From Bacteroidota bacterium (GTDB lineage Bacteria > Bacteroidota > Bacteroidia > Chitinophagales > Chitinophagaceae): DNA of 46,148 nucleotides. Location: positions 1 to 46,148 of the forward strand of contig JAFDYA010000086.1 of assembly GCA_018267675.1 (NCBI GenBank), read 5' to 3'. This document shows positions 11,134-14,805 of this stretch, one piece after another. Position 1 is the first letter of the stretch; each line of letters begins with the position of its first letter. Under the pieces are notes generated by a model. The model was not told the origin of the DNA, searched no databases, and saw nothing but the letters and a program-made list of their open reading frames with translations. The position numbers and the translations under genes are program-made.

Positions 11134-11229
11134 ATCCGGAGGGGGTTCCCCGCGCCAGGGATCGCAACGGAAATCATTTGCGTCCCGATAGGGCGCAAAT
11201 ATTGTAGTGTAGAGCCCGCCCGGGCGCCC
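11134..11229 (-). repeat. Dispersed intergenic hairpin repeat, copy A
   Basis: On the minus strand the unit reads GGGCTCTACACTACAAT, then a hairpin (ATTTGCG CCC tatc GGG a CGCAAAT), then GATTTCCGTTGCGATCCC and a GC-rich end. The hairpin has a single bulged A on its 3' arm. The same architecture is found at 35148-35216, and related flanks occur at 14683-14805. It fills the gap between pth and the propeller lipoprotein gene. Confidence 0.7.
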
Positions 11230-11264: not shown

Positions 11265-12326
11265 CTAGAATAAGAAATGGCCGGGCCCTACACCTGTGGC
11301 AAAACTGTGTACCAGCGTGCCATTGGGCTGATAAATGCTGACGTTTCCGCGCTGGGTGAAGCCTTTGGGATCGCTGAGGTAAATGTGACCGGTACTCGGA
11401 TCTATGCCCAAGCCCCAGAAATATTGAAAGCCCTGTGCGGGGATGAACGCCGCCTCGGGAAGCGCGGTATCCTTGATGCTCATGCGATAAAGTCCGTTGT
11501 GTTCTGAGCCGCCACCATAGGCTACTTCAAGGAAATAGAGGGTATCCTTTGTGGGGTTCAACTCCAACCGGATGGGGTCGGCACTACCAAATGAAAAACT
11601 GCGCAAGCTCGTTCCTGTAACAGGATGGAGCTGGGTGAGTGTTGCGCTTACTCCTTCTGCGACATTGCCGGACAACACCCAAAGCATCCCGTCCTGGTCC
11701 TTAACGACGGACTGGGGGGCATGACCTGCAAGCACAAACTTATACACCTGTTCATCACGAGCGGTATCCAAAGCGATGATGGAACTATTGGCGGAATCCC
11801 ATTGGCATACGAATAGCTTATCACCGACTAATTGCATACCCTCGGGATTTTTGAACGGCATTGGTATGCTCCCGCGCAGGCTCAGGTCTTGTGGATTGAT
11901 GACGTAGAGCTTGCTGCCAAACAAAGAGGATACATAAGCCTTTTGCGGACTTACTTGCACGATATAACGCGGCTTAGGCACGCTAAGTTCCCCAATCCTT
12001 CTGAGGCTGTCTTTGTCGAGAACAATGATCTTATCACTATTGTTGATACAGAGAAAATACCGCCCATCCCAACTGCGGGTGATACTCTGAAACACATCGC
12101 CCAATGCGGCGTTATTCACTTGGCGGTACCGGTCTTCAATGGCTAGCCCGGACTCTGGATAATACACGGTGAGGGCACTATTTCCGCTGCCGTATGCACC
12201 TTCGCAGGCTACAAACACCTGCCTGCCCGATGCGGGTGGAGCGGGCGGATCGGCAGTGTCTTTCTTGCACGAGCTCCAGCCAAAAAGCAATAGGGCAACT
12301 ACTGATGTAACAACAACTTGGTGCAC
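11265..12326 (-). CDS. BtuG-like beta-propeller surface lipoprotein
   Basis: A 353-residue lipoprotein (signal peptide with WSSC lipobox, then KKD and a Pro/Ala linker). The body has repeated YncE-like propeller blades such as DGRYFLCINNSDKIIVLDKDSL, KAYVSSLFGSKLYVINPQDL and DGMLWVLSGN. It is the last gene of a three-gene operon headed by a cobalamin riboswitch. In gut Bacteroides, BtuG proteins are propeller lipoproteins of this general kind that capture vitamin B12 at the BtuB receptor; that function is known for BtuG and inferred here. The start is GTG, overlapping the end of the preceding gene by 28 bases, which suggests translational coupling. No TonB receptor is adjacent. The alternative is a generic DUF5074/YncE-type lipoprotein not binding B12. 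Confidence 0.8.
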   Translation of the reverse strand: MHQVVVTSVVALLLFGWSSCKKDTADPPAPPASGRQVFVACEGAYGSGNSALTVYYPESGLAIEDRYRQVNNAALGDVFQSITRSWDGRYFLCINNSDKIIVLDKDSLRRIGELSVPKPRYIVQVSPQKAYVSSLFGSKLYVINPQDLSLRGSIPMPFKNPEGMQLVGDKLFVCQWDSANSSIIALDTARDEQVYKFVLAGHAPQSVVKDQDGMLWVLSGNVAEGVSATLTQLHPVTGTSLRSFSFGSADPIRLELNPTKDTLYFLEVAYGGGSEHNGLYRMSIKDTALPEAAFIPAQGFQYFWGLGIDPSTGHIYLSDPKGFTQRGNVSIYQPNGTLVHSFATGVGPGHFLF

Positions 12327-13297
12327 GAGTATCCATTTTGAAATTGAAGGCGTAGAAACAGAAGTCCGGCGGGTAGTTCTTGTAAGGAAAGGCGTGTAGT
12401 GCCGGAGTGGATGGCATTTTGCCGCAAACAGGCGCCTGAAGGGGCATACAGGCTCAATAGCCCCGTTCCAAACCCATCCGGCACTCGTACATCTAGTGTG
12501 GCTCCGGCGGGATTGGGATAGACCGAAATATCAGTGGCTAAAGTCGGTACGACTGTTGTTGCCGTGCTATGAATCACCCCCACAGCATCCAAGTCAAAAC
12601 CGCTGCTGGGGAAAGGCGTAGGGAAGGGATCGTTGACCTTCCTACCCTGAGCGTCCAAGCTGCCATCTGCCCCAATTGCCCCGACCACATCAATGAGCCG
12701 TACTGCAATTATATGCTGCACATCCAGCCCGGGACTATCCACCAACTCTTGCAGATCAAATGGTGTCCCGAAGCCGGCGATATACTTACCGGCTAGGTTG
12801 TGCAGTTGGCGTGCAGTGGTATAGGACGGTGCAGCGGTACTGGAAAGCTGGACGGTATCTTGTGTCTGGGAAATGGCGGGGAAACGAGTGAAATGCACGC
12901 CATCGGAACTTACCTCCACAAAGGCCAATTCCAGAAAAGCTTCTTCCGGGTTCAACACATTGGCAAAGCCATTCTCAAACACGGCAAAGTCCGCACCAGT
13001 ACCATTACGGAGGGCATCCTTAAAAAAAACGGTAGCCACACCGGCGTCCCCCAAACTGAGCACATTGCCATCCGGTGCGCCAATCGCTGCACTCGTATCG
13101 CCCAGGCTCGCATAGCCACCAGCCATATTCCCGATTTGCTGCAAGCCTCGCTGCACGTCACATCGAGTAGCCCAAGCCTGAAACAGGCTACTCGTTTTGG
13201 GTATCGCCGTAGTACCGACAACGCCGGCCTGCGGCGCATACTGAGCTTGCACGGCTCCACTCAGTAGGAGGCATAGAGCGATGAGAATCCCTTTCAT
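12299..13297 (-). CDS. T9SS-sorted surface protein of the B12-controlled operon
   Basis: A 332-residue protein with a signal peptide (MKGILIALCLLLSGAVQAQ) and a C-terminal type A sorting domain starting VYPNPAGATLDVRV (about residue 261), so it should be exported by T9SS and anchored at the surface. The N-terminal domain (20-245) has the conserved-looking segments GADFAVFENGF, EEAFLELAFVEVSSDGVHF and GSSLDA-like GADGSLDAQG, followed by SSGFDLDAVGVIH. I recall this type annotated only as 'cell surface protein' in Bacteroidetes, and no function is known to me. It starts 5 bases after the DUF4465-like gene and overlaps the propeller gene. Its position under the riboswitch points to a role in corrinoid capture, which is inference. 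Confidence 0.82.
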   Translation of the reverse strand: MKGILIALCLLLSGAVQAQYAPQAGVVGTTAIPKTSSLFQAWATRCDVQRGLQQIGNMAGGYASLGDTSAAIGAPDGNVLSLGDAGVATVFFKDALRNGTGADFAVFENGFANVLNPEEAFLELAFVEVSSDGVHFTRFPAISQTQDTVQLSSTAAPSYTTARQLHNLAGKYIAGFGTPFDLQELVDSPGLDVQHIIAVRLIDVVGAIGADGSLDAQGRKVNDPFPTPFPSSGFDLDAVGVIHSTATTVVPTLATDISVYPNPAGATLDVRVPDGFGTGLLSLYAPSGACLRQNAIHSGTTRLSLQELPAGLLFLRLQFQNGYSCTKLLLHQ

Positions 13298-13302
13298 GTT
13301 CG

Positions 13303-14283
13303 CTACTGTTTGATAAAGGTGCTGGCTGTTTTACCTGCTTTCCCTCTCAGTCGGAGCACATAGCGCCCTGCCGGAAAGCTAGAGATGTCCAGCGTTTGCC
13401 GTAAGTTACTAATCGGAAATTGAGCCACTACCCTACCGGACATATCCAGGATTTGGCAGGAACGAAAATCAGCAGCATTCAACTCCAAATGGAGCAAGCT
13501 TTGAGCCGGTACAGGGAAAATACGAGCTTGTTGGTCAAATGGAAGCGCCGCTACAGTAGAGGGCTGTAGGAAGAATACATTGTCCAGCGCAAAGTACAAG
13601 GGAGTATTGATACCAAACATGCCGGTATCGGAGGAGCTAAGGCTGAAGGTTAAGCTGTCTAGTTCGTGTGCGGGATTGAACGGTAGATTGACGGGTGTCC
13701 AGTCATTAAGGATATAGTCTTTGGAATTGTCGCTAAAACGAAAATCGGCCAAATAAAAATCAAAGCTATCCATTGGGTAAACACCTTTCGTATCATAGCC
13801 CTTAATGGTCAGTTTGAACCAATCAGAATCATTGCCGCTCGCGCCGCCAAACTTCTTGGCAAAAGCATCCCCATTGAGCATGGAATAGTAGGCATAGACC
13901 GTATTCGTTACATAGAAAGAAGTGATTGCCCCTGCTTTCTGCGCCTTCACATAATTATGCCCGCCATTTACCACCATATACTGCTTAGATGCCGTATCCA
14001 CGCCCTTTTTATACTTTGCCGAATACTGATTGCCATAGCCTGGCGTAGTCGTATCCGTCATATTGGACCAAGCAAAACCGGAGGACCAAAGGCCGCCAAA
14101 AGCAGTGTCGTACACGCATGGGTAATGCACGAAAGCCTCAGTGACCCCGACATCTTTACCCGGCTGACTATAATTCACATAAAACGTATCCGGCTTAGGG
14201 AGGGTCAAGCGCTCAAAAGTACCCAATTGAGCAGAAGCAGAGAGCGGCAGCAAGGCCAAAGAACAGAGGAGCAGTTTGCGCAT
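13303..14283 (-). CDS. DUF4465-like T9SS-sorted surface protein
   Basis: I start at the ATG ending at 14283 (MRKLLLCSLALLPLSASAQ, a clear signal peptide), giving 326 residues; an upstream in-frame ATG would add 11 polar residues before it. Residues 20-250 carry DUF4465-type features: the repeated WSSGFAWSNMTD motif, YGNQYSAKY, GYDTKGVYPMDSFDFYLADFR and LYFALDNVFF. The tail (RIFPVPAQSLLHLEL ... GRYVLRLRG) is a T9SS type A sorting domain. It is the first gene after the cobalamin riboswitch, with a leader of about 300 bases. DUF4465 proteins have no established biochemical role that I can state, but I recall them near B12 uptake genes in Bacteroidetes. Confidence 0.85.
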   Translation of the reverse strand: MRKLLLCSLALLPLSASAQLGTFERLTLPKPDTFYVNYSQPGKDVGVTEAFVHYPCVYDTAFGGLWSSGFAWSNMTDTTTPGYGNQYSAKYKKGVDTASKQYMVVNGGHNYVKAQKAGAITSFYVTNTVYAYYSMLNGDAFAKKFGGASGNDSDWFKLTIKGYDTKGVYPMDSFDFYLADFRFSDNSKDYILNDWTPVNLPFNPAHELDSLTFSLSSSDTGMFGINTPLYFALDNVFFLQPSTVAALPFDQQARIFPVPAQSLLHLELNAADFRSCQILDMSGRVVAQFPISNLRQTLDISSFPAGRYVLRLRGKAGKTASTFIKQ

Positions 14284-14427
14284 TATTTGTTGGTTTTTGA
14301 AAAATGACAAATTCAATAAACGCCATCACCAACAACGCAAAAAAGTAGGAAAATACCCATACGGAAACTAAGATTCCAAATGGACTATCCGCAGCTTTTT
14401 TCCCGAAGGCAGCGATAACTATAGTGC

Positions 14428-14580
14428 AGTGGCAAGGTCTTCTGACTTACTTCTTCGCGTTGGCGGCCTTCCCATCCTAATTCATCTTTTTGGCGGACAG
14501 TGGCACTAATGCAACGCGCATGGATTGAAGCTTACAGCATCGGGTAATGTTGAGGATTTACACCTCATTCCCTTTTCCAA
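14428..14580 (-). ncRNA. Cobalamin (B12) riboswitch
   Basis: Read on the minus strand the conserved blocks appear in order. GGGAATGAGGTG (14561-14572) is followed by AAATCC and CCCGATGCTGTAAGC (14530-14544). Then come GTGCCACTGTCC (14495-14506) and GGAAGGCCGCCAACGCG (near 14456-14472). The B12 box AAGTCAGAAGACCTTGCC (14431-14448) closes the series. These are the core elements of adenosylcobalamin-class aptamers. The expression platform should lie in 14284-14427; I could not identify a convincing terminator or sequestering stem there. Binding of B12 would be expected to switch off the three downstream surface-protein genes. Confidence 0.93.
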
Positions 14581-14588
14581 TTGCAGGG

Positions 14589-14618
14589 CAAAGGTAGCAA
14601 CAAAGTGCTGACTGGAAC
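14589..14618 (-). promoter_or_regulatory. Promoter of the cobalamin-riboswitch operon
   Basis: On the minus strand TACCTTTG (14589-14596) is an exact TAnnTTTG element. A TTTG block lies about 21 bases upstream. Transcription would begin just before the riboswitch aptamer. Confidence 0.65.
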
Positions 14619-14682
14619 AAATCCAATCTTTGCTAACCCAAAAAATCATTGAAAATCACAAGTAGATTGATTCAATTTTTTA

Positions 14683-14805
14683 GGGCGTGCCTCCGCAGAA
14701 TGCGGAGTCGGGCTATGCACTACAAGTCCTCGGCTGGCTCCGTTGCACTCCGCCAACCTGTGGGCTTTCCGTTGCTATCCCTCACGCGGCCCCGAGCATA
14801 CACAC
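14683..14805 (+). repeat. Dispersed intergenic hairpin repeat, copy B
   Basis: It starts with GGGCGTGC and a perfect small hairpin (CTCCGCA gaa TGCGGAG, 14691-14707). Next come CGGGCTATGCACTACAAGTCC, an imperfect GC-rich stem, and GGGCTTTCCGTTGCTATCCC with a CACGCGG end. The flanks match copies A and C (GGGCTnTnCACTACAA and TTTCCGTTGCnATCCC), but the central hairpin differs. It lies between the riboswitch promoter and the end of mscS. Confidence 0.65.

Follow-up and report, generated by a model that had tools for sequence, protein, structure and literature searches.

A three-gene operon of a Chitinophagaceae bacterium probably encodes a surface module for the capture of vitamin B12 (cobalamin). 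The operon lies on the minus strand of contig JAFDYA010000086.1 (assembly GCA_018267675.1), whose whole length of 46,148 nucleotides (nt) is referred to as the window. It consists of a cobalamin-riboswitch-type RNA followed by genes 1 (13303–14283), 2 (12299–13297), and 3 (11265–12326), which would specify a BtuJ relative and a BtuH-like protein, each with a tail for sorting by the type IX secretion system (T9SS), and a BtuG-like lipoprotein. In gut Bacteroides, the surface lipoproteins that capture B12 have been studied in detail. Since two of the three proteins carry T9SS tails instead of the lipid anchors of gut Bacteroides, a B12-capturing surface layer is likely. The aptamer match, the identities of the genes by family or predicted fold, the tails, and the conserved gene order were computed; regulation, export, binding, and hand-over are what we infer from them. 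An initial annotation had described a B12 aptamer and a promoter ahead of three overlapping or adjacent genes, and had interpreted the products as a possible corrinoid-capture layer. The observation proves correct, and the interpretation is supported in part, binding and B12 control in the host being presumed from sequence. Genes 1 and 2 are separated by 5 nt and genes 2 and 3 overlap by 28 nt, so that a single transcript is likely.

The aptamer (14415–14627, minus strand) matches the Rfam cobalamin riboswitch family RF00174, with a score of 77.6 bits (E = 1.6e-17) against a gathering score of 31.5 bits. The promoter element proposed in the initial annotation was also found: TACCTTTG, a Bacteroidetes −7 element of the form TAnnTTTG, occupies 14589–14596 on the minus strand, inside the Rfam match. 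The frequency of sigma-70-type promoter sites was not above chance. Expression of the operon is predicted to be on at low B12.

The gene 1 product combines a putative signal peptide, a DUF4465 (BtuJ-type) domain, and a T9SS sorting tail of the kind that marks T9SS cargo. The domain (PF14717) scored 154.4 bits against a curated cut-off of 25 bits, and alignment with the solved DUF4465 structures (PDB 9qpm, 9fct, and 9hmu) gave E values of 1.7e-18 to 1.7e-17. The HI loop (INTPLYF) contains the NTPxY motif as INTPLY, aligned to MNTPSY of the solved protein; this MNTPSY loop holds a B12-contacting tyrosine in BtuJ1 (PMC12751083), and eight divergent DUF4465 proteins are reported to bind B12 (PMC13398666). 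The structure alignments, the loop, and the eight reported binders together provide strong grounds for expecting that the gene 1 product binds B12. The strict motif is present in 33 of the 54 DUF4465 proteins from the loci of relatives described below. Gene 1 shares the domain, the HI-loop tyrosine motif, and a cobalamin riboswitch ahead of the gene with BtuJ1 and BtuJ2 (DUF4465, IPR027828) of Bacteroides thetaiotaomicron, but the latter are lipoproteins, whereas gene 1 has the putative signal peptide and the T9SS tail. Since the C-terminal sorting domain IPR026444 is counted on 229 of 824 DUF4465 proteins in PMC12751083, a tail of the T9SS type already has a precedent in the family, and the suggestion in the initial annotation that such display had not been described does not hold for gene 1.

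Gene 2 encodes a putative signal peptide, a BtuH-like domain of predicted fold (residues 18–246; 12560–13246, minus strand), and a C-terminal T9SS tail (TIGR04183, 25.2 bits against a cut-off of 23 bits), and is, with gene 1, one of the two proteins in which the initial annotation had noted T9SS sorting domains. Searches of the PDB and Pfam with its sequence returned the T9SS tail or chance matches only. A full-length model (predicted local distance difference test score of 80) had beta-glucuronidases as its top Foldseek matches, with a query template modelling score of at most 0.23, and because of this poor result the domain was modelled separately. Modelled alone, it showed the BtuH fold in a structural comparison of the predicted model. 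A profile search of gene 2 against solved BtuH chains found none up to E = 10, and the protein is therefore named BtuH-like rather than assigned to BtuH. In a local alignment of 41 columns, the BtuH contact residues N399 and F401 fall opposite N109 and F111 of gene 2, and the other contacts (Gln333, His476, Tyr510, Trp511, and Trp577) had no reliable placement in a low-confidence whole-length HH alignment. Compared with BtuH2 (7BIZ) and the H domain of BtuG1/BtuGH (8BLW), the gene 2 model has the same fold and the same place in the operon, and the aligned Asn and Phe are nucleotide-loop contacts of these proteins; gene 2 differs in giving no significant single-sequence match, in having no PKD domains, and in its T9SS tail in place of the lipid anchor of BtuH2 and BtuGH.

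The full-length gene 2 query found 7270 homologues, some of which may match through the tail alone; the size of the family is therefore taken from at least 561 loci whose search patterns lie within the N-terminal domain. A fair count of tails is given by PF18962, precomputed on 116 of 120 listed homologues; the fit of our own tail model to 79 of 79 gene 2 relatives is circular, the model having been built from those sequences. A plasmid search using the gene 2 domain gave no match, and at gut-type Bacteroidales riboswitch loci no BtuH sequence was recognisable with the models built in the present analysis, the only ones run there.

Gene 3 encodes a DUF5074 beta-propeller (PF16819, 57 bits), of which residues 15–352 of 353 align with the BtuG-type chain PDB 8bmx_D (E = 5e-36), and a lipobox-like pattern at its N-terminus predicts a lipoprotein. 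The near full-length alignment and the lipobox-like signal liken it to BtuG, a DUF5074 propeller lipoprotein; it is named BtuG-like because no BtuB adjoins it. The initial annotation had thus recognised the propeller correctly and was incomplete for gene 1, a DUF4465/BtuJ relative, and gene 2, with its predicted BtuH-type fold. Its proposed comparison with BtuG and BtuH structures succeeded for gene 3 and, through the model, for the fold of gene 2, and failed for the gene 2 sequence. All three proteins correspond to known classes of B12 binders, and a role in corrinoid capture appears likely on sequence and modelling grounds. No BtuB was found in the operon, and the best match in the genome, from an assembly that is 84% complete, scored 19.7 bits. 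BtuB is present in all three other genomes of the genus, directly downstream in two and approximately 4.5 kb off, beyond opposite-strand genes, in the third. The gap in the window genome may represent assembly loss, relocation, or true loss.

Conservation of the operon was analyzed in relatives using the best 80 of the 561 confirmed loci (L numbers). L033, which does hold DUF4465, DUF5074, and BtuB-type genes, has no anchor gene because the simple open reading frame caller chose an antisense frame, and operon counts are therefore given out of 79. RF00174 matches occur in the genomes of 79 of the 80 relatives, and in 66 of the 80 loci a match lies on the same strand no more than 4 kb upstream, with about 0.07 such loci expected by chance. 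The 66 loci comprise 49 from mapped coordinates and a motif check and 17 from Rfam runs on the loci (7, 6, and 4); the motif check is loose, and with a stricter pattern 47 of the 80 loci show a riboswitch. In L075 the riboswitch lies 4.7 kb upstream, and six of the remaining loci have less than 1 kb of upstream sequence. The same-strand run includes DUF4465 in 51, DUF5074 in 66, and a BtuB-type receptor in 46 of the 79 loci, with at least one of them in 68; such a receptor is found anywhere in the locus in 49. Co-occurrence with B12 loci in other genomes, a check named in the initial annotation, is seen in these counts.

BtuJ-, BtuH-, and BtuG-type genes (J-H-G) are contiguous in 42 loci, in two of which J and H are fused (L032 and L052), and seven loci have the order J-H-B-G, with B as the BtuB-type receptor. 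The culturable relative Taibaiella soli (L028) has the same operon as the window. The receptor was tested in L018, where the best PDB matches (8p97 and 8bmx) identify it as BtuB. Some loci contain clusters represented in L062 by Peripla_BP_2, FecCD, and ABC proteins, which are taken from context as BtuF, BtuC, and BtuD. A loose lipobox pattern was found in 62 of 69 DUF5074 proteins, 5 of 54 DUF4465 proteins, and 12 of 79 gene 2 relatives, and the T9SS tail model fits 53 of the 54 DUF4465 proteins versus 2 of the 69 DUF5074 proteins. These counts suggest that, in operons of the J-H-G type, J and H are likely routed to the T9SS while G is probably a lipoprotein. A plasmid of B. finegoldii (L106) has the order DUF4465, BtuH2, lipoprotein, BtuG-type, TonB receptor, and transporter genes. 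Retention of this J-H-G(-B) order in the T9SS operons is the strongest non-structural argument for gene 2 in the BtuH role. In the Bacteroides operon, unlike that of the window, H and G are separated by the additional lipoprotein gene, and an ABC transporter is attached. Both BtuJ and BtuH of B. thetaiotaomicron are lipoproteins, in contrast to the T9SS-tailed J and H described here.

The first slot of the operon is variable. In five loci (L082, 8811–10001; L066, L087, L092, and L096) the place of DUF4465 is held by proteins of one cluster, whose L082 member, the sole one scanned, has both DUF4430 and a T9SS tail. DUF4430 is related to the C-terminal domain of transcobalamin. A T9SS-tailed cluster with no named domain in the members scanned (L062, 3843–5219; L090, 8667–9941) stands ahead of gene 2 in six of seven loci and is a candidate for a further B12 binder. 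Seven loci (L060, L072, L073, L076, L078, L080, and L088) have a riboswitch, but their runs lack DUF4465, DUF5074, and BtuB-type genes, and four have neither riboswitch nor partner genes (L069, L084, L091, and L093). The gene 2 relative comes directly after the riboswitch in L060, L072, L073, and L076; in the first three, the next protein is a small one belonging to a single cluster, for which the L073 member gave a PSCyt1 match. In gut-type Bacteroidales, very large proteins are encoded immediately behind other cobalamin riboswitches, with lengths of 1257 amino acids with DUF4465 (L098, 9535–13308), 1584 amino acids (L102, 327–5081), and 1276 amino acids (L101, 8331–12161).

In 44 of 64 relatives, the TAnnTTTG element is found at most 3 nt from the point where the Rfam aptamer match begins. 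In the window only 16 nt separate it from the GGGAA core, leaving too little space for the usual 5′ hairpin. Among 49 riboswitches in which this spacing could be measured (18 others could not), it is 13–16 nt in four (the window, L051 of Taibaiella lutea, L068 of T. koreensis, and L080) and at least 31 nt in 45. If transcription begins at TAnnTTTG, the window aptamer is therefore probably a short form without the 5′ hairpin, and its transcribed start is probably near 14584. GCAATTGG (14577–14584, minus strand), with the GGGAA core almost directly after it, is the likely 5′ strand of the base stem. The aptamers of the three congeners, unlike that of the window, are not of this form. By eye, the short aptamers of L051, L068, and L080 have differing stem sequences in which pairing is still possible.

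The short aptamer could also belong to a degenerating B12 locus that has lost BtuB and the 5′ hairpin and whose three proteins no longer serve uptake. The window aptamer has the lowest score among the four congeneric loci, its base stem is weak in silico, and BtuB is missing from the locus, with no close one in the assembly, against three of three congeners that have it. We nevertheless regard such decay as very unlikely: the three frames are intact and have the expected domains, the incomplete assembly contains 14 other TonB plug matches, which were not individually examined, BtuB is likewise absent from other J-H-G loci for which 10 kb of downstream sequence is available (L029, L051, L063, L068, and L070), and short aptamers recur in three other loci.

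The other alternatives concern the proteins rather than the locus. Gene 2 might be co-regulated without binding B12, its CBM32/discoidin-like domain attaching to a glycan or another surface polymer to tether or organise the capture complex; with the predicted fold and the gene order favouring the BtuH role, this appears unlikely. It is also unlikely, though slightly less so, that the proteins leave the cell through the T9SS as soluble carriers of B12, analogous to haemophores, and are set free in the medium instead of forming a fixed surface layer. Type A sorting tails allow either release or anchoring, and the sequence features here favour neither. The BtuJ proteins of B. thetaiotaomicron deliver B12 on extracellular vesicles (PMC12751083), which is in keeping with mobile carriers.

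For the capture module, the following sequence of events is proposed. At low cobalamin the aptamer would be empty and the operon expressed. Signal peptides would take proteins 1 and 2 across the inner membrane, and passage through the outer membrane would be by the T9SS. This system removes sorting tails and attaches its cargo to the surface or releases it. Corrinoid would be bound by the DUF4465 jelly-roll pocket of protein 1 and the cleft of the BtuH-like domain of protein 2, and cobalamin would then pass to the BtuG-like lid and on to a BtuB encoded elsewhere in the genome or missing from the assembly. The 2.7-Mb genome contains the T9SS translocon SprA (2389.7 bits), the part of the system searched for, and a MetH B12-activation domain, so that the host probably has both a means of export and a requirement for B12. 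Outside the operon of the window, no further match to the cobalamin riboswitch, DUF4465, or DUF5074 was found in this genome. Gene 2 matches occur in 11 of 39 searched relatives of the window genome (itself included), one of which (G115) has only short partial matches; all three other genomes of the genus carry the gene.

Just 3′ of gene 3 lies a Flavo-1 element (11149–11225, plus strand; RF01705, 48.9 bits), a boundary element outside the proposed mechanism. Flavo-1 matches at 56 sites in the genome, with 32 scores above the cut-off, and behaves here as a dispersed repeat. A degenerate Flavo-1-like stretch with two shared motifs and a score under the Rfam cut-off occupies 14709–14779 on the minus strand, and the operon is thus flanked by the two in opposite orientations.

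Each part of the operon resembles a known class; in the literature searched, the BtuH-like T9SS family and the whole J-H-G operon were not found described, and to this extent the novelty seen in the initial annotation stands. Open-licence papers joined B12 uptake and T9SS only in co-mentions. On balance, we favour the view that there is a so far unrecognised T9SS branch of B12 acquisition beyond gut Bacteroides, in which a large unnamed BtuH-fold family and BtuJ-like partners, exported by the T9SS under cobalamin riboswitches, form a displayed or released corrinoid-capture layer feeding BtuG–BtuB, with a first operon slot open to other binders, including the transcobalamin-recalling DUF4430. 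If this is true, T9SS-delivered proteins would serve the B12 need of many other Bacteroidota, a testable function would be available for a family of “hypothetical T9SS proteins”, and the T9SS would gain a clear role in vitamin scavenging.
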